Assembly (NCBI RefSeq): GCF_000758705.1
Contig: NZ_CP009287.1
Span: 496,001 to 560,000 of the forward strand
Direction: 5' to 3'
Source: Paenibacillus graminis
Lineage (GTDB): Bacteria > Bacillota > Bacilli > Paenibacillales > Paenibacillaceae
DNA: 64,000 nt
In this document: positions 21,619-34,059 of the stretch, piece by piece
Layout of the letters: every line of letters starts with the position of its first letter
Numbering within the stretch: position 1 is the first letter of the stretch
Translations under genes and position numbers: made by a program
Notes under the pieces: generated by a model
Told to the model about the DNA's origin: nothing
The model's input: only the letters and a program-made list of their open reading frames with translations
Database searches by the model: none

Positions 21619-22770
21619 ATGGCGCGCAGGCAGTTCCGGTTGTTTCCGCAAAGATTCGGCTTTTTCCCTTATATGTGGCTCCTATACTTGTTGTTTCCGG
21701 TCATCAATCTGCAAGAGGAGCATGGAATCAAGCTGGTGCTTGGCGCAGCGATGCTGGTCCTGTTCGCCGTGACCTACCGGCAGCTTTATTGGGCCACCGG
21801 CAGAGCTTTTACCCTGTGGCTGGCTGTGCAGATGCTGATTATTGTAATTCTAAGTGCAGCCTATACGCCTTACGATCTGTTTATGGGCTTCTTTACCTCG
21901 AATTTCATCGGCTGGTACACAAGGGAGAAGCATTTTAAAATGGCTTTTGCTGTATTCGCGGCCATGGTGCTTGTCCCGCTGATCGCGGCTACTTGGGGAA
22001 TGGCGGTAGGGGATTTGCTGTTCCTGTACCCATTCATGATTATTATGCTGGTCTTCCCGTTTGGCATACGCTCACTGTACCGCAAAAGAATGCTGGAAAA
22101 GGAGCTGGACCAGGCCAACGAAGTCATCAAGGAACTGGTTAAACGCGAGGAACGGATGCGGATTGCCCGGGACCTGCACGATACGCTGGGGCACACGCTG
22201 TCGCTGATTACCCTCAAGAGCCAGCTGGTCGAAAAGCTTGCGGCCAAGGATGCCGAACGCACGCAAGCCGAAGCCAGGGAGATCCAGCGGATTTCACGCG
22301 CGGCGCTGCGCCAGGTCCGTGAACTGGTGTCGGAGATGCGGGCCGTATCCGTAGCTGAAGAGCTGGCGGAAGTGGGGGAAATGCTGCGTACAGCGGATAT
22401 AGCCATGGAAATCGAGGGCGATGCCCAGCTTGAGGGCGTATCAGACCTTACTCAGAATATTCTAAGTCTCTGCATCAAGGAGGCTGTGACCAACATTGTG
22501 AAGCATAGTGGAGCGGACTGGTGCCGGATTGCCCTTGCCATGACAGAGGGAGAGGTACAGATCTCCATTGAGGATAACGGAGTTGGACTGCACCCGCAGG
22601 AGCAGGAAGGCCATGTGCGGGACGAAGGCAACGGGATGAAAGGGATGGCTGAACGGCTGTCATTGATTGACGGTTCTTTGAAGCTGAGTTCAGGCGAAAA
22701 GAGGGGGACGGTCTTGACTGTTGCCATCCCGAGAGTCGTCAAGGAAAGAAAGGATGGAGTGACTGCATGA
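21619..22770 (+). CDS. Sensor histidine kinase, DesK/HisKA_3 type
   Basis: A 383-residue kinase with five to six N-terminal membrane segments (residues 15-150) and no large outside domain, a coiled linker, the HisKA_3 motif RIARDLHDTLGHTLSL (phosphoacceptor His187) and an HATPase domain (NIVKHSGA, GNGMKGMAERL). Such kinases sense membrane state or a membrane-bound ligand, often through the partner ABC transporter. It overlaps the response regulator by four bases. Confidence 0.92.
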   Translation: MARRQFRLFPQRFGFFPYMWLLYLLFPVINLQEEHGIKLVLGAAMLVLFAVTYRQLYWATGRAFTLWLAVQMLIIVILSAAYTPYDLFMGFFTSNFIGWYTREKHFKMAFAVFAAMVLVPLIAATWGMAVGDLLFLYPFMIIMLVFPFGIRSLYRKRMLEKELDQANEVIKELVKREERMRIARDLHDTLGHTLSLITLKSQLVEKLAAKDAERTQAEAREIQRISRAALRQVRELVSEMRAVSVAEELAEVGEMLRTADIAMEIEGDAQLEGVSDLTQNILSLCIKEAVTNIVKHSGADWCRIALAMTEGEVQISIEDNGVGLHPQEQEGHVRDEGNGMKGMAERLSLIDGSLKLSSGEKRGTVLTVAIPRVVKERKDGVTA

Positions 22771-23369
22771 TACGCATCGTAATTGCCGAAGATCAGCGCC
22801 TGCTGCGCGGGGCCATGGCTTCGCTGCTGGATCTGGAGGACGATATAGAAGTGGCAGGAGAAGCCGGGGACGGGGCGGAGGCGCTTGCTGTCATTGAACG
22901 GCTTCAGCCGGATGTATGCCTGATGGACATAGAAATGCCCTATAAAAGCGGGCTGGATGTAGCGGAAACCTTGAAGGCAAAAGGCTGCGCCACCAAAATC
23001 ATTATACTGACCACCTTTGCCCGTCCGGGCTATTTGGAGCGCGGCGTGAAGGCCGGGATTCAAGGGTATCTGCTGAAGGACGAGCCGGTAGACAAGCTGG
23101 CGGATGCGATCCGCCGGGTCATGGACGGCCACCGGGAGGTGTCTCCCGAGCTTGTCTTCGGCAGCCTGCGGGAAGAAAATCCGCTGTCTGACCGGGAGCG
23201 GGAAATCCTGAAGCTGGCCGGCGGCGGCCAGAGCGCCGGGGAAATCGCAGCTGCGCTGCACCTCTCCTATGGTACTGTCCGCAATTACATATCCGAGATT
23301 CTGAACAAACTGGAAGTGAAGAGCCGCATTGAAGCCGTGCGGCTGGCGGAGGAGAAGGGCTGGATTTAG
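22767..23369 (+). CDS. Response regulator, NarL/LuxR type
   Basis: A 200-residue regulator with a receiver domain (phosphoacceptor Asp54 in CLMDIEMP; conserved Lys in LLKDEP) and a LuxR-type helix-turn-helix (LSDREREILKLAGGGQSAGEIAAALHLS, given here in parts: LSDREREILKLAGGG and QSAGEIAAALHLSYGTV). It is paired with the DesK-type kinase and probably controls its own operon through the TGACA half-sites at 19857-19903. Confidence 0.92.
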   Translation: MIRIVIAEDQRLLRGAMASLLDLEDDIEVAGEAGDGAEALAVIERLQPDVCLMDIEMPYKSGLDVAETLKAKGCATKIIILTTFARPGYLERGVKAGIQGYLLKDEPVDKLADAIRRVMDGHREVSPELVFGSLREENPLSDREREILKLAGGGQSAGEIAAALHLSYGTVRNYISEILNKLEVKSRIEAVRLAEEKGWI

Positions 23370-23981: not shown

Positions 23982-24989
23982 TTACTTGGCAGCCTTCGCC
24001 TGCTCCTCGCGCATCCATTGGGACAGCTGGCGCTTCAGCTTCAGGAATTCGGGCGATTCCGTAATTTCCTCGCGGCGAGGGCGCGGGAAAGGAACATCGA
24101 CGGTATGCAGGACGGAGCCGGGACGTCCGGAGAAGACGTAGATGCGGCTGGAGAGGAGCAGCGCCTCCTCGATATTGTGGGTGATGAACAGCACGGAGCG
24201 GCGGTTCTCCTCCCACAGCTCCAGCAGCCAGCGCTGCATTTCGCTGCGCGTCAGCGCATCCAGCGCGCTGAACGGCTCGTCCAGCAGCATCAGCTCCTGC
24301 GGCGCCAGCAGCGCCCGCAGAAAAGCGGCCCGCTGCTGCATGCCGCCAGACAGCATATGCGGGTAGGCGCGTTCGAACCCGCCAAGGCCGACCTTGTCCA
24401 GCCAGTGGCGGGCGGCCGCCCGCGCTTCCGCCCGCGGCTTGCCCTTCAGCTCACCCGCGAGCAGGACATTGTCTTCGATGGTCCGCCACGGGAACAGCGC
24501 AGGCTGCTGGGGCATATAGCTGATCTCGCCGCGCTGTCCGGTGACCGGCTTGCCGTTCATGCTTATGGTTCCGGCATCGGGCTGCTCCAGGCCGCCGATA
24601 ATGTGGAACAGTGTGCTTTTGCCGCAGCCGGAGGGGCCCACGATGGAGACGAATTCCTGCGGCTCCACCTTGAGCGAGACATGGTCCAGCACCAGGGTTT
24701 CACGGCGGCGGTGGAAGAAAGCCTTAGTCACGCTGTCCACTTCCAGCGCTGGCGGCGCTCCGGCCATGCGGGCTGCATCAGCCCGCTCCGCCTCAGTCCG
24801 GCCCCCGTCGGGTCCGGCCATGCGGGCCGCATCAGCCCGCTCCGCCTCAGTCCGGCCCCCGCCGGGTCCGGCCATACGGACCGCTCCAGCCTGCTCCGCC
24901 TCAGCCTGCCCCCCGCCGCTGCAGCCCCGGCTGCCGTCAGCACTTGAGCCTGCGGCTCCATCGCGGCCGGTATCCGTAATATGAGTCAT
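23982..24989 (-). CDS. Thiamine-precursor ABC transporter ATPase (ThiZ-like) with repeat-expanded N-terminus
   Basis: Last gene of a thiamine-regulated operon. Residues from about 85 on form a nitrate/taurine-class ATPase: Walker A GPSGCGKST, a Q-loop in MPQQPALFPW, signature LSGGMQQRAAFLRAL, Walker B LMLLDEPFSALD and switch His (FITHNIEEALL). The first about 85 residues are Ala/Gly-rich and contain three 18-residue repeats (RTEAERADAARMAGPDGG), encoded by 54-bp direct repeats; family members normally begin near ALEVDSVTKAF. ATG 24989 lies seven bases after GAGG. The ATPase part is complete, so the gene should work. Confidence 0.88.
   Translation of the reverse strand: MTHITDTGRDGAAGSSADGSRGCSGGGQAEAEQAGAVRMAGPGGGRTEAERADAARMAGPDGGRTEAERADAARMAGAPPALEVDSVTKAFFHRRRETLVLDHVSLKVEPQEFVSIVGPSGCGKSTLFHIIGGLEQPDAGTISMNGKPVTGQRGEISYMPQQPALFPWRTIEDNVLLAGELKGKPRAEARAAARHWLDKVGLGGFERAYPHMLSGGMQQRAAFLRALLAPQELMLLDEPFSALDALTRSEMQRWLLELWEENRRSVLFITHNIEEALLLSSRIYVFSGRPGSVLHTVDVPFPRPRREEITESPEFLKLKRQLSQWMREEQAKAAK
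24762..24922. repeat. 54-bp direct repeats inside the ThiZ-like gene
   Basis: Two nearly identical and one diverged copy of a 54-bp GC-rich unit encode the N-terminal RTEAERADAARMAG repeats. The frame is kept. Confidence 0.75.
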
Positions 24990-25054
24990 GTTCATTCCTC
25001 TTTCTTTCCGGAAAGCCTAAACCGGTTATTCTGTAACGTAGTGCTCAGCCTGTA

Positions 25055-25816
25055 TCAAGAGGTCTTGCGCGGCTTCCAGCGGACCAGCCACTTTTCCAGC
25101 AGGGCGATCAGGGCGAACAGCACCAGACTAAGAAGCACAATAATTACAATGGCAACGAACATCCGGTCTGTGCGGTAGGAGGCCTTCTGCAGCAGCATGT
25201 AGTAGCCGATGCCCTTGTCCGCGCCGATCCACTCCGCGACCACCGCGCCCATGACCGCGTAGGTTGCGGAGATTTTCAGGCCCGAGAACAGGGAGGGCAG
25301 GGAGCCGGGCAGCTCCAGCTTGGTAAAGATCTGCCACTTATTTGCCCCGGCCATTTTCATATAATTCATCATGATCCGGTCGCTTTGGGCCAGCCCGCCC
25401 ATGGCGGCGACGGCAACCGGGAAGAAGCAGACGAGTGTGATGAGGACGATTTTGGGCATCAGCCCGAACCCGAACCAGATGATCAGCAGCGGCCCGAGGG
25501 CAATCGATGGCACATTCTGGCTGAGAATCAGCAGCGGGTACAGCGCTCTTTTCAGCCAGGGCACTAGATGCAGCAGCAGAGCTACAATAAGGCCCACCCC
25601 TGTGCCGACAGGAAAGCCGATCAGGGTCAGCCGCAGCGTAGCCGCCGTATGCGCCCAGATGCCCGAAGCATTGCCCCGGGATTCGCGGGCGATATCGCCG
25701 GGGCTTGGCAGCATCCAGGAAGGTACATGGAACACGGAAACCGCCAATTGCCAGGCCCCCAGAAAAAAGATGACCGCCACAAGGGGCGGCCAGATTTGGT
25801 TCCAGTATGATCTCAC
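25055..25816 (-). CDS. Thiamine-precursor ABC transporter permease (ThiX-like)
   Basis: A 253-residue BPD_transp_1 permease with six membrane segments and the EAA-type loop (MKMAGANKWQIFTKLELPGSLP) that docks the ATPase. It overlaps the stop of the thiamine-binding protein gene by four bases. With the neighbouring binding protein and ATPase it should import a pyrimidine precursor of thiamine; the TPP riboswitch upstream supports this. Confidence 0.9.
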   Translation of the reverse strand: MRSYWNQIWPPLVAVIFFLGAWQLAVSVFHVPSWMLPSPGDIARESRGNASGIWAHTAATLRLTLIGFPVGTGVGLIVALLLHLVPWLKRALYPLLILSQNVPSIALGPLLIIWFGFGLMPKIVLITLVCFFPVAVAAMGGLAQSDRIMMNYMKMAGANKWQIFTKLELPGSLPSLFSGLKISATYAVMGAVVAEWIGADKGIGYYMLLQKASYRTDRMFVAIVIIVLLSLVLFALIALLEKWLVRWKPRKTS

Positions 25817-26106
25817 GGCCGGTATTTTTCCGTCAGCTTGTCCATGCTGATCCCGGTGGGGTTATGGGCGATCTTGATCTGTGAGATGACGCTGGGGCTG
25901 CCGGAAGCGATCAGTGCTTCGTGCATTTGGCGCACCACTTCGAGCAGTTCGTTCAGTTCACCTTCCATCGTGGTTTCGAGCGGGTTCACCTGGTGTTTGA
26001 CACCGGATTGCTGAATCACCTCAATGGCCTTGTCTACATAAGGAATGGAATCCTCGTTGTTCGGAGTTTTAGGGATGACTTGAATGCTGAGCAGGGTATT
26101 GGCCAT
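25813..26106 (-). CDS. MTH1187/YqgV-family thiamine-binding protein
   Basis: A 97-residue protein of the thiamine_BP family (ferredoxin-like fold), with LLSIQVIPKTPN at the N-terminus, IPYVDKAIEVIQQSG and NPLETTMEGELNELLEVV. Family members are cytosolic and bind thiamine or its pyrimidine. Its place between the lipoprotein and permease genes of the operon suggests it receives or buffers the imported ligand. It overlaps the permease gene by four bases. Confidence 0.85.
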   Translation of the reverse strand: MANTLLSIQVIPKTPNNEDSIPYVDKAIEVIQQSGVKHQVNPLETTMEGELNELLEVVRQMHEALIASGSPSVISQIKIAHNPTGISMDKLTEKYRP

Positions 26107-26154
26107 GTCAATCAGATCCTTTCAGGTTTGGTATCGTAGGTTTGCACAGTAGAA

Positions 26155-27225
26155 TTACTGGCCTTGCGGCAAATAATCATTGGTGAACGCTGAAGCGGCA
26201 TCCAGCGGTTTGTCCAGCAGCTTCAGGCCGTACATCCAGTCGGCGTAATTCTTCCAGACCTCTGCTTTTTGCTCACCCCAGCGGGCGGCATCGTCTTTAT
26301 ATTTCGGGCTCAGCCATTTCTGGCTGGCGAGGACCAGCTTAGGGTCGAGATCCGGCACAGCCTTGGAGAGGATAGCGGCCGCTTCTTCCGGCTTGTCGAT
26401 CGCATATTGATAGCCTTTGGTTGTAGCCGCAAGGAAAGCCTTCACCAGCTCCGGATGCTTGGCAATTTCCTTTTCGCTGGTGGTCAGAACCGGGGTGTAG
26501 TAATCCAGCTGCGGCGCGTAATCCTTCAGATACAGCATGTCAACCGGCTCGCCGCGCAGCTCGGCTTCGATACCGGTCCATGCATAGAAAATCCACGCAA
26601 AATCGATGTCGCGTTTTACGGCAGTGAAGAAGTCGGCTTCTCCGATGTTGACCAGCTTCACCTTTTTGACATCGCCGCCTTCAGGGTCCATGATCGCTTT
26701 CATGGCAGCTTCTTCAGCCGGGGAGCCCCAGCCGCCGTAGGTTTTGCCTTCAAAATCTTTGGGCGTCTTGATCTTGCGGTCTTTCGGAGCGGCAAACCCC
26801 GAGGTATTATGCTGGATGATGGCAGCGATTGAGACGAGCGGCACATCCTGCAGCCGGGCCAGTGTGAGCGCCTCCTGGGCACTGATGCCAAAAGCGGCTT
26901 CGCCTGAGGTGACCATTGTGTCGGCTCCGGCTGCACCAGGCTGCACTATTTCTACATCCAGGCCTTCCTCCTCATAATATCCCAGCTCCTTGGCTGCATA
27001 GAGGCCGGTATGGTTGGTGTTTGGCGTCCAGTCCAGAGCGACCTTAATTTTAGTCAGCTCTTTTGGAGCGTCAGCCGCCGGGGCGGTGGCCTCAGGCGCG
27101 GCGGAGCTGTCTCCGGATGGAGCAGCGCTATTCCCGCCGGAATTTGCATTATTGCTGCCGCAGCCGGCCATTACGATGACCAGCATGCAGCTGATGCAGA
27201 GCATTAGTGTTTTTTTGACTCCCAT
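26155..27225 (-). CDS. thiY: Thiamine-pyrimidine (HMP-type) substrate-binding lipoprotein, ThiY-like
   Basis: A 356-residue NMT1/THI5-like binding protein. The signal peptide ends in a lipobox (VIVMAGCGSN), followed by a Ser/Ala-rich linker. The conserved start of the mature domain, VALDWTPNTNHTGLYAAKELGYY, given as VALDWTPNTNHTG and LYAAKELGYY, is diagnostic for ThiY/HMP-precursor binding proteins. It is the first gene after the TPP riboswitch, so thiamine pyrophosphate should switch the operon off. ATG follows GGAAGGAGAG. Confidence 0.92.
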   Translation of the reverse strand: MGVKKTLMLCISCMLVIVMAGCGSNNANSGGNSAAPSGDSSAAPEATAPAADAPKELTKIKVALDWTPNTNHTGLYAAKELGYYEEEGLDVEIVQPGAAGADTMVTSGEAAFGISAQEALTLARLQDVPLVSIAAIIQHNTSGFAAPKDRKIKTPKDFEGKTYGGWGSPAEEAAMKAIMDPEGGDVKKVKLVNIGEADFFTAVKRDIDFAWIFYAWTGIEAELRGEPVDMLYLKDYAPQLDYYTPVLTTSEKEIAKHPELVKAFLAATTKGYQYAIDKPEEAAAILSKAVPDLDPKLVLASQKWLSPKYKDDAARWGEQKAEVWKNYADWMYGLKLLDKPLDAASAFTNDYLPQGQ

Positions 27226-27309: not shown

Positions 27310-27361
27310 TGCATTTGCGTTAGGGACCGCTTAAGCCAATTGGCTGAATAGCGGGTGATGG

Positions 27362-27448
27362 ATTCCTACGCTGGCATTATCCAGATCAGGTATAAGGGTC
27401 AGTATCTTTGCGGGATACACTCTCAGCCGGCCCATTCCAGCCCCCCTG
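27362..27448 (-). ncRNA. TPP riboswitch aptamer
   Basis: The minus strand holds the conserved TPP (THI element) sequences in order: GGGGGGCTGGAATGGGCCGG, then CTGAGA, then GACCCTTATACCTGATCTGG and ATAATGCCAGCGTAGG. The first and last parts pair to close the three-way junction. A terminator follows 53 bp downstream. It controls the ABC operon 27225-23982. Confidence 0.95.
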
Positions 27449-27488
27449 GTACTATGAAGTTATGGGTATTGCTGTGTTCTTACGGTGT

Positions 27489-27637: not shown

Positions 27638-28702
27638 ATGTTCGCTGACCAGCAACATGCCGGAGAACGGCTGAAGGCGCTAGCGGAGCAGTTGGCGGAA
27701 GAAGTCACTTTGCGTCAGTATGAGCGGCAGCCCGGGCTGCGGCAAAGATTCGGCCCTTCCGGCATAGCAAGAACCAAGCAGGATTCTCTTTATCATTTCC
27801 GGTATCTGGCCCAAAGTGTGGCGCTGGATAGCCCGCTTTTATTTATAAATTATATTATCTGGCTGAAAGTCCTGCTCGCACAGTATAAGATTACGGCCGA
27901 GGATCTGCAGATCAATTTGGATCTGATGAAGGATGCTATAAGTTCCCAGGTGGAAACACCAGAAAAGGAGCTGATTATAAGCTATCTCGATATGGGGATA
28001 CACCACGCACGCGGAGAGGACAGCCTGCCTACCTTTCTTCTTCCGGAAAAGCCCTATTACCACGAGGCAGAGGAGTACCTGAAGCTGCTTCTGGCCGGTG
28101 AACGCCGTAAGGCTTCGGAGTTCGTGCTGGGGCTGCATGAGGACGGTGTGCCTATCCGTGATCTCTATCTGCATCTCTTCCAGAACAGCCAGTATGAGAT
28201 TGGCCGTCTATGGCAGCTAGGCCGCATCACTGTAGCCCAGGAGCATTACTGTACAGCCTGTACCCAGAGTATCATCTCCCAGCTCTACCCGCGTTGGATT
28301 GAGGCAGCACAGAAAAGCAAAAAAACGCTGGTAGCGGTCGGCGTGGGCGAGGAGCTGCATGAAATCGGATTGCGGATGCTTGCTGATTTCTTCGAAATGG
28401 AGGGCTGGAACACCTGCTACTTGGGTTCCAATATGCCCGCAGAGGGACTGATCCGCTATTTAAAAGAGCAGCCTGCCGATCTCCTGGCCGTCTCGATTAC
28501 CATGACTTATCATGTGTCGGAGGTTCAGCGTTTGATTGCCTCGATCCGCACGCATGCCGGACTGGACCGCATGAAAATTCTAGTCGGCGGAATGCCGTTT
28601 AATATCGACAGAGCATTATGGGAAAAGGTTGGAGCCGACGGCTACGCCCCGGACGCCAAAGGGGCGCTGGAAATGGCGGCACAGCTGATTCCCCGGAACT
28701 AG
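27638..28702 (+). CDS. Stand-alone cobalamin-binding protein with CarH-type photoreceptor motif
   Basis: A 354-residue soluble protein. Residues 1-130 are helical with no family I can name. Residues about 140-225 form the helical B12 cap and contain W192-x9-E202-H203, exactly the Wx9EH motif of CarH/LitR adenosylcobalamin photoreceptors. Residues 230-350 form the B12-binding fold: VGVGEELHEIG (His241, the lower axial ligand, with Glu instead of the usual Asp two before it), YLGSNMP and VGGMPF. No DNA-binding domain is present. The hybrid kinase gene follows 36 bp later and is the likely output. Light or B12 sensing is inferred from the motif. Confidence 0.85.
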   Translation: MFADQQHAGERLKALAEQLAEEVTLRQYERQPGLRQRFGPSGIARTKQDSLYHFRYLAQSVALDSPLLFINYIIWLKVLLAQYKITAEDLQINLDLMKDAISSQVETPEKELIISYLDMGIHHARGEDSLPTFLLPEKPYYHEAEEYLKLLLAGERRKASEFVLGLHEDGVPIRDLYLHLFQNSQYEIGRLWQLGRITVAQEHYCTACTQSIISQLYPRWIEAAQKSKKTLVAVGVGEELHEIGLRMLADFFEMEGWNTCYLGSNMPAEGLIRYLKEQPADLLAVSITMTYHVSEVQRLIASIRTHAGLDRMKILVGGMPFNIDRALWEKVGADGYAPDAKGALEMAAQLIPRN

Positions 28703-28738
28703 CACCCAGAGAACTTATACAAAAGGCGGGATATAGAA

Positions 28739-30424
28739 ATGGCCGACCACGAGCAGGAAGTCCGGAAACTGAGGGAAACCATTGAGCGGCTCTCGCATCA
28801 AGTAATTCAGGGACAGCAGAGAGAAGAACAGACCCTCGCAGAATTCTCCGCGATGAACAATGAATTAATTACGATGCACCGGCTGCTTGCGAAGAACAGT
28901 GCCGGCCTTAAGGAGATGAAGGAGGAGGCGGAGGAGGCCAACCGGGCGAAAAGCCTGTTTCTGGCTACAATCAGCCATGAAATCCGCACGCCGATGAACG
29001 GCATTCTGGGAATGACCGAACTTCTGGAGGCTGAAGGTGCGACGGACGGGCAGCGGGCTCATCTGGAAGTTATCCGGGAATCCGCACAATACCTGCTGCA
29101 GATGATCAACAACCTGCTGGATATCTCGAAGATTGAAGCCAGTAGAATGGTACTGGAGAAGACACCGCTTAACCTGCGTGGTCTGCTTGAGCATGTGGTC
29201 CGGCTGCTCTCTACGGCTGCCGTGAAGCGCGGGAATATTCTGAAATGGCAGGTTGCGGACAGAGTAGACCATACTCTAAGCGGTGATTCGTCGAAAATTC
29301 TTCAGGTCCTCATCAATCTGGTGGGAAATGGACTAAAGTTCACACAGAACGGTGAAGTGGAAGTGACTGTAAGGCTGCTTCGGGAGGATGCGGCCCAGCA
29401 GTACCTATGCTTCGAAGTCAGGGATGAGGGTATCGGCATTCCACTGAAGGATCAGGCAACGCTGTTCCGGCCCTATTCACAGATCAGCAGCGAGTCGGCA
29501 ATGGCAGTGGAGGGCACGGGGCTTGGCCTGTCGATCTGCAAGTCCATGGTGGAGCTGATGGGCGGGACGATTATGGTGGACAGCGCCCCTGGCCGGGGCT
29601 CAACCTTCCGGTTTGAGGTTGCGCTGGATAAGACGCTGAGCCTGAAGGAACCGGCTCCCGCGGGTGAAGCGGTATTGCCGGAGGCCCGCTTCAGCACGCA
29701 GCCGGTGCTGGTTGCAGAAGACAACGGACTCAACAGCACCCTCTTGCTGCTGCAGCTGAAGAAGCTGGGCATTACAAATGTGCAGATGGTCGGCAGCGGC
29801 AAGGAAGCTGTCGAAGCCTGGCAGCAGGGAGAGTACGGGCTTATTCTGATGGACAGCAGGCTTCCCGGTATGAACGGAGGGGAAGCGGTCCGCAGAATCC
29901 GGCAACTGGAGTCTTCCGGGGCAAGGCCGAGAATTCCCATCATCGGGGTGACCGGGGATGGATCGGAGGAGAGCCGGGCACAGTTTTTCGAGGCTGGTCT
30001 GGACGACTGGGCGGTTAAGCCTTTGAACCTGGAGCGGCTGAGGCAGCTTCTGGACAGATGGTTCAGCCCCGGGCCTTATATCCCGGTGCTGGATGCGGAT
30101 ACCATTTCCGGTATCCGGGAAATGGACGGGGAAGAGGCGCCGCAGCTGCTCCAGGCGCTGGTGGAGATGTTCAAGGATGATACGCCGCTCCGGCTGACAT
30201 CCCTGGAGGCAGCCTTTGCTGCAAGGGACCTGCCTGAGATGGCGGCCGTGGCCCACGGCCTGAAATCAGGCAGCCTGAGCATAGGAGCAAAGCACTTTGC
30301 CCATTTGTGCGCAGCGGTTGAATGCCATGCCAGAGAGGGTGAGTATGAACCGGCTGCACGGGTGCTGCCGAAGCTTGCCCCTGCGTATGCGGAAGCGTGC
30401 CGGGAACTGGAGAGCCTGCTGTAG
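28739..30424 (+). CDS. Soluble hybrid histidine kinase (HisKA-HATPase-REC-HPt)
   Basis: A 561-residue kinase. Residues 1-70 are a coiled coil without membrane segments or a sensor domain. HisKA follows ([18 protein letters not shown], His80), then HATPase ([24 protein letters not shown]), a receiver (VLVAEDN, Asp in [10 protein letters not shown], Lys in AVKPLN) and a C-terminal HPt domain (His in [12 protein letters not shown]). The parts form a full His-Asp-His relay that must end in a separate response regulator, none of which is adjacent. Lacking its own sensor, it probably takes input from the B12-binding protein encoded just upstream. Confidence 0.9.
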
Positions 30425-30445
30425 TTTTGGCGGGCTGTTTTTTTT
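30413..30445 (+). terminator. Intrinsic terminator overlapping the kinase stop codon
   Basis: AGCCTGC pairs with GCGGGCT and is followed by eight T; the stop codon lies in the loop. Confidence 0.8.
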
Positions 30446-33245: not shown

Positions 33246-33384
33246 GCTGGGCCGTCTAGCTTAGAGGAATATGAAATTACTAGGAGAAACATCAGATAAC
33301 CGGCAGGCGAAAAAACTGGAGGCTCCCAAAGGACATCGGAGCCATTTTTTGCTTTTTTCAGAAAAGAGAAAGGATTTGACTTGT

Positions 33385-34059
33385 ATGAGTGTTACCTTGC
33401 TGTATGTTGAAGATGACCGGGAGATCGGAAGCGCCGTCTCCGCCGATCTGCGGGAACGAGAATATGCTGTCCGCTGGCTGGAGAGCGGGGAGGGTGCTGT
33501 AGAGGCTGCGGCGGGCTGCCAGCTGGTCATTCTGGACGTCATGCTGCCCGGGCTGGACGGCTTCACTGTAGGCCAGCGGCTGAAGCGGGCGTATCCGAAC
33601 CTGCCGGTCCTGATGCTGTCCGCGCGGGCTTCCATCGATGACAAGCTTCAGGGCCTGGAGTTCGCCGATGATTATTTGACCAAGCCTTTTCATCCGGATG
33701 AGCTGGCGGCGCGGATCGAAGTACTGTTAAGACGGACAGGAGCTGTCCTGTCCATCCCGTTGAAGCTGAAGCATCTGATGGTGTACGAAGGGGACAACCG
33801 GATCATAGAGGCAGCCAGCGGCAAAGAAATTTTGCTTACCGGCAAGCAGTTTCAGATTTTCTCCTATTTGCTGCGCCATCTCGGCCAAATACTGACGAAG
33901 GAGCAGATCTATGAGGCGGTCTGGGGAGAAAGCTACATAGAAGGCGATAAGACACTGATGGTGCATATCCGGTATCTGCGTGAGAAGCTTGAGCTTGATC
34001 CGGCTGCTCCGGAGATTATCGAGACAGTCCGGGGAATCGGCTACCGGGTGAGAGCATGA
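33385..34059 (+). CDS. Response regulator, OmpR type
   Basis: A 224-residue regulator with a receiver domain (phosphoacceptor Asp51 in LVILDVMLPGLDGF, Lys in YLTKPF) and an OmpR winged helix (LTGKQFQIFSYLLRHLGQIL, then VHIRYLREKLE and ETVRGIGYRVRA). The segment GLEFADDYLTKPF is one residue shorter than the usual GLExGADDY, a small deletion near the switch region. It overlaps the kinase gene by four bases and controls, by analogy, the ABC genes downstream. ATG 33385 follows AAAGGA; the open frame from 33271 is an extension without support. Confidence 0.9.
   Translation: MSVTLLYVEDDREIGSAVSADLREREYAVRWLESGEGAVEAAAGCQLVILDVMLPGLDGFTVGQRLKRAYPNLPVLMLSARASIDDKLQGLEFADDYLTKPFHPDELAARIEVLLRRTGAVLSIPLKLKHLMVYEGDNRIIEAASGKEILLTGKQFQIFSYLLRHLGQILTKEQIYEAVWGESYIEGDKTLMVHIRYLREKLELDPAAPEIIETVRGIGYRVRA

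Follow-up and report, generated by a model that had tools for sequence, protein, structure and literature searches.

What does a putative vitamin B12-dependent light receptor do when it lacks a DNA-binding domain and stands beside a histidine kinase? This question is raised by two genes in a 64,000-nucleotide stretch of the Paenibacillus graminis genome (NZ_CP009287.1, positions 496,001 to 560,000; hereafter the window, whose numbering is used throughout). In the list of open reading frames (ORFs), ORF A (27638..28702, plus strand, 354 amino acids) is followed after a gap of 36 nucleotides by ORF B on the same strand (28739..30424, 561 amino acids), and a stretch resembling a ribosome-binding site precedes each. 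A first-pass annotation of this DNA had placed both ORFs correctly and proposed that a CarH-type photoreceptor signals to a sensorless hybrid kinase. We arrived at a modified reading, which we consider likely: ORF A is a photocobilin that would be changed by light and would control kinase B through a coiled coil.

We analysed the B12 part of ORF A by Pfam. A helical cap (B12-binding_2, residues 144-216, 28067..28285, E=5.5e-12) precedes a B12-binding Rossmann domain (residues 231-344, 28328..28669, E=2.6e-19), and the residues pointed out in the first-pass annotation, W192, E202, H203 and the axial H241, lie inside or next to these domains. All four were invariant in 81 of 81 proteins, that is, the window protein and those of 80 named loci, so this motif is not a product of chance. 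The 80 loci come from a search with ORF A alone, which gave 328 matches of which the best 80 were taken; Bacillota account for 57 of the 80. In line with the first-pass annotation, the Pfam scan of ORF A found no DNA-binding domain. The signature of light-responsive cobalamin-binding domains (SignatureFinder) comprises GxxW, EH, GxxH and GxxxP according to the section of PMC11796333 that describes it. Three of these elements are present in ORF A, as G189-W192, E202-H203 and G263-P267.

The first-pass annotation missed the N-terminal domain. Residues 1-127 (27638..28018) correspond to a bilin-binding-type, phycobiliprotein-like globin fold (photoglobin). In a profile alignment (E=3e-5), D49 and W75 align with the bilin contacts Asp270 and Trp296 of the photocobilin SasPcob, a register also given by a second comparison, in which that stretch alone was weak (independent E value 15). 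Both residues were present in 81 of 81 proteins. Judged from its sequence, ORF A would sense light with vitamin B12 and probably also with a bile-type pigment. Photocobilins, in the main text of Zhang et al. 2024 (PMC10979010), form a receptor class that uses B12 and biliverdin, with groups that carry the B12 domain at either end; ORF A has the globin first. The photocobilins SasPcob (8J2W/8J2X) and AbDPcob (8J2Y) share with ORF A the globin and B12 domains as well as the W..EH and E/DxH motifs, and SasPcob, as ORF A, is a standalone protein. By its architecture, ORF A is a photocobilin, with its domains in globin-then-B12 order.

This assignment separates ORF A from other B12 proteins. A CarH that lost its MerR domain was ruled out, given that the N-terminus is a globin fold. 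CarH/LitR proteins (5C8E and others) possess the MerR DNA-binding domain that is absent from ORF A, whereas ORF A has the extra globin. Furthermore, the position of His132 in TtCarH is occupied by Q193 in ORF A (Q in 76 and H in 5 of the 81 proteins), and a bis-His light state is therefore not expected. The CarH-type adenosyl pocket of the earlier proposal stood, but in place of a bare CarH cap there is a photocobilin-type protein whose N-terminus adds a bilin-type domain. The partner of AerR (Rhodobacter capsulatus, 7TE2) is a transcription factor, not a kinase, and AerR, unlike ORF A, has no globin domain.

Alternatively, ORF A could carry the corrinoid for a methyltransferase system of the MtgC/MtbC type and have no role in light, its kinase neighbour being incidental. 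MtgC_2 is indeed its best NCBIfam match (E=4.6e-19), but with 68.7 bits it stays far below the cut-off of 370, and the other such match reached 54.7 of 350 bits. Photocobilins match ORF A better than corrinoid methyltransferase proteins do, no methyltransferase was recognised by eye beside ORF A in the window, and the kinase neighbour is conserved across phyla (see below). We rejected this candidate and regard the carrier explanation as scarcely credible.

ORF B encodes, in this order, HisKA, HATPase_c, Response_reg and Hpt domains (Pfam). H80, the N-, G1- and G2-boxes, D372 and H506 are all there, and the kinase looks intact at the level of its residues. No Pfam domain was found before HisKA, which starts at residue 70. 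That is, the architecture HisKA-HATPase-REC-HPt with only a coiled coil in front was borne out by both domains and residues. The best NCBIfam matches were hybrid kinases of the TorS/ArcB/BarA type, all under their cut-offs; these have the same domain order, but ORF B differs from them in that only the coiled coil precedes HisKA and no sensor domain was recognised.

If the kinase is the partner of the photocobilin, how stable is their pairing? Full-length ORF A was detected in 19 of 100 genomes of the genus, and ORF B was adjacent on the same strand in 19 of 19 (18 fetched loci plus the window), so the neighbourhood that the first-pass annotation had wanted checked in related genomes holds. The flanks beyond the pair differ between relatives; general synteny therefore does not explain the pairing. 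In two further genomes, A is present in truncated form only: 82 residues were matched in G026 and 278 in G089, a genome that is 71% complete. ORF B is absent in both, as if one deletion had removed the end of A and the whole of B. The gene after the truncated A (L050 in G026, L046 in G089) is common to relatives.

Beyond the genus, a kinase core was located downstream of A on the same strand in 77 of the 80 named loci, counted within 1,100 nucleotides and with best scores (76 within 1,000 nucleotides and with one domain score per locus). Of the three loci without a kinase core, L065 has a truncated A and the other two (L133, L136) are from Adhaeribacter. A tree of 74 of these 77 kinases, from which L109, L110 and L126 (<150 bits) were left out and which has a midpoint root only, spans 11 phyla according to the labels, several of them from metagenome assemblies. 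The kinase thus emerged as the dedicated neighbour that the first-pass annotation had taken it to be.

A protein-database search with residues 1-64 of ORF B, which reaches close relatives only, returned 14 proteins, all with the four domains of ORF B. In all 77 neighbouring kinases we found a helix motif, located in ORF B at residues 35-53 (28841..28897). Its usual form is (D/E)E(F/L)S-x-(M/L)NNEL-xxx-QR-x-L-x-K-x-N-x-EL, with variants, an expression composed after the sequences were seen. The H-boxes of the partner kinases vary (AHDLR, SHEIR, SHDFR, AHEIN), while the coiled coil stays.

The specificity of the motif was assessed with a 34-column profile built from 32 of the 77 kinases, in genomes chosen by genus or as carriers of A. 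Among the 100 genomes of the genus, it matched 21 places in 20 genomes at E<=1.1e-14, all of them B kinases; 20 of these places are beside A and one is in the A-less genome G017, and the next best match had an E value of 0.128. The profile was also run on 21 genomes that contain named loci, 19 of them from outside the Bacillota: 25 places in 23 proteins matched at E<=0.01, and for 24 of the places (22 of the proteins) an A homologue lay in the fetched 3 kilobases (kb). One of the matches belongs to a second photocobilin-kinase pair in G106, outside the 80 loci, and the exception away from A is a partial match in G109 (E=1e-5). Since most other matches in the 21 genomes come from kinases that entered the profile or resemble its members, this comparison tests specificity and is not a discovery. 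Within the genomes searched, a generic kinase linker is thus unsupported, with the partial match in G109 as the one case away from A. Because the motif is, in these genomes, nearly confined to photocobilin-adjacent kinases, we propose the coiled coil as a docking helix for the photocobilin.

In kinases of other phyla and in seven Paenibacillus loci (L079, L082, L093, L103, L104, L105, L111), about 100 residues lie before the coiled coil. No Pfam domain was found in this region among the kinases scanned, and its predicted model (mean predicted local distance difference test score 72.0) resembles PAS domains in a Foldseek search (best E=1.1e-4). ORF B of the window is devoid of it. Accordingly, the label sensorless fits the window kinase but not its distant relatives, where a PAS-like domain precedes the same coiled coil. 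On the kinase tree at least two changes are needed to place the PAS-like label under the midpoint root, which is consistent with a loss of the domain in the Bacillota.

Taken together, the first-pass annotation was right in its observation and in part of its interpretation (adenosyl pocket, missing DNA-binding domain and kinase partner), and we suggest the following mechanism. The B12 domain of A would hold adenosylcobalamin (AdoCbl): His241 would be the lower ligand of the cofactor, whose adenosyl group would sit in the pocket of W192, E202 and H203. The N-terminal globin appears built to hold a bilin. Light would break the Co-C bond, directly or via the bilin, and change the shape or the oligomeric state of A. 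In trans, A would then act on kinase B via the conserved coiled coil that lies shortly ahead of the phospho-acceptor histidine. Autophosphorylation of B would be altered, in a direction that, like the output regulator, we can only infer, and the relay would run from H80 to D372, H506 and an unlinked response regulator. Precedent for an action in trans comes from the main text of PMC10979010, where a standalone photocobilin acts on a diguanylate cyclase in vitro and where the role of standalone photocobilins is called "less clear". The hybrid histidine kinase neighbour sets ORF A apart from SasPcob and AbDPcob.

Several observations weigh against this mechanism. At a cut-off of our choosing (E<=1e-120), B-like kinases occur in 21 of the 100 genomes of the genus, namely the 19 with full-length A plus G014 and G017, which keep the kinase without A. 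The coiled coil of the G017 kinase (L138) is intact; that of the G014 kinase (L139) is degenerate and gives no profile match. In G028 the kinase is alignable over residues 1-519 only. Both Adhaeribacter loci encode, after A, a PAS-coiled-coil-like protein of 164-171 amino acids with a related form of the motif and no kinase core. Inspection of the window by eye showed no response regulator close to the pair that lacked a kinase: the two seen, at 22767-23369 and 33271-34059, each adjoin a kinase of their own. Finally, the globin of ORF A has T46 where phycobiliproteins have the Cys for covalent attachment.

The A-less kinases of G014 and G017 and the Adhaeribacter neighbour would fit an alternative in which A is a photocobilin with another target and B is merely co-transcribed, as would the split photocobilin of other Paenibacillus, which adjoins a CheB-CheR-PAS-kinase without the motif. 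We nevertheless hold this alternative to be improbable: a motif common to kinases with different H-boxes, and found nearly only beside photocobilins, is hard to explain without contact, and both genomes with a truncated A are also without B. The split form itself (L051-L055, in G067, G046, G021, G033 and G004) consists of a globin ORF of 122-160 amino acids and a B12 ORF of 224-235 amino acids on opposite strands. The globin ORF is followed by a protein of 1,207-1,217 amino acids with a kinase core, which in L051 reads CheB-CheR-PAS-HisKA-HATPase.

Chromophore supply bears on the mechanism as well. The P. graminis genome has a match for cobalamin adenosyltransferase (PF01923). B12-associated globins have been linked with heme oxygenase (PMC10151467). 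No canonical heme oxygenase match was found in the P. graminis genome, and 7 of 100 genomes of the genus, including three of the 19 with full-length A (G002, G063, G076), have one. We therefore discarded canonical heme oxygenase as the bilin source. In G063 the heme oxygenase gene (G063:C3:98535-99107, L035) lies some 4 kb ahead of the photocobilin gene, on its upstream side, and likewise in L063.

A gene of the ABM fold (PF03992), related to heme-degrading monooxygenases, is beside A in 27 of the 80 loci (L067-L071, L073, L075, L079, L106, L109-L111, L113, L116, L119, L122-L124, L126, L129, L131-L137), 26 times upstream on the same strand; in L126 it is on the strand opposite to the photocobilin. 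Its relatives in the PDB are MhuD/HmoB and TT1380. Two positions of MhuD, Asn7 and a Trp, we take to be catalytic. All 27 A-linked sequences keep the Trp and have Ser at the position aligned with Asn7, and the protein may therefore do other chemistry or only carry the bilin. This subfamily (E<=1e-20) occurs in six genomes of the genus, beside full-length A (G004, G020, G033) or a split photoglobin (G021, G046, G067), and a heme oxygenase match is missing from all six. With three of the 19 full-length-A genomes and not P. graminis itself among the carriers, it was rejected as a general bilin source. Neither the window, beside ORF A, nor the rest of the P. graminis genome contains a member, although an ABM domain is found in four other places of this genome. 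In total, 13 of the 19 genomes with A, P. graminis included, have neither the heme oxygenase nor the ABM gene.

The missing heme oxygenase speaks for a further alternative, in which the pair and its contact stay as proposed, but what is signalled is cobalamin status (presence or absence of AdoCbl, or its redox form) and the globin serves a structural role or binds a different ligand. Also in its favour, E238 replaces the G of GxxH before the axial His and so breaks the light signature published in the cited section of PMC11796333; the position is variable across the 81 proteins (S in 23, G in 22, E in 18). In addition, the main text of PMC10979010 gives a bilin occupancy of about 20% for AbDPcob and states that its activity falls on AdoCbl binding even in the dark. 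However, D49 and W75 are invariant in the 81 proteins, as if the bilin were kept, and the W, E and H of the adenosyl pocket are the residues of light receptors. We judge signalling of cobalamin status unlikely, though more plausible than a target other than B, and retain light control of kinase B by the photocobilin.

An association of globin and B12 domains, termed photoglobin, was reportedly described by Schneider et al. 2022 (cited in PMC10151467 and PMC10979010), with a predicted light-sensing bundle linked to signal-transduction domains; that work is outside the literature we searched (titles and abstract openings), in which the A-B gene pair was not found. The main text of PMC10979010 nowhere uses "kinase", "operon" or "Paenibacill", and the part of PMC8156234 consulted contains nothing on the pair. 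To the extent that these searches can tell, three things are new: a conserved kinase partner that carries a specific coiled coil, a Paenibacillus form devoid of the PAS-like domain, and the link with the ABM gene.

Within the window, a terminator-like hairpin with a T-run (30413..30436, plus strand, terminator scan) lies at the end of ORF B; such sites were not more frequent in the region than in shuffled sequence (4 found versus a mean of 3.2), and a promoter scan of the region likewise gave a count no higher than in shuffles. A scan of the 64-kb window found no transfer RNA genes. Divergent from ORF A, a thiamine pyrophosphate riboswitch (Rfam RF00059, 58 bits, 27346-27457, minus strand) precedes a cluster resembling ATP-binding cassette transporter genes (23982-27225, minus strand).

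For standalone photocobilins, the conserved kinase neighbour and its specific motif provide a concrete candidate partner and contact site. Tentatively, and with somewhat more doubt than confidence, we envisage a portable light-input module: a standalone photocobilin would dock on a coiled-coil helix that is attached to varied kinases (to none in Adhaeribacter), with or without a PAS-like domain, and in some branches a co-encoded protein of the IsdG/MhuD fold, with Ser for Asn, would make or handle the bilin, possibly not ordinary biliverdin. The Paenibacillus pair would be one branch of this module. With an ABM gene linked to A, one may ask which bilin serves where heme oxygenase is missing. 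If our reading is true, two-component signalling in many phyla draws on one and the same input module, whose coiled-coil helix would be usable as an adapter for green or red light control of kinases.
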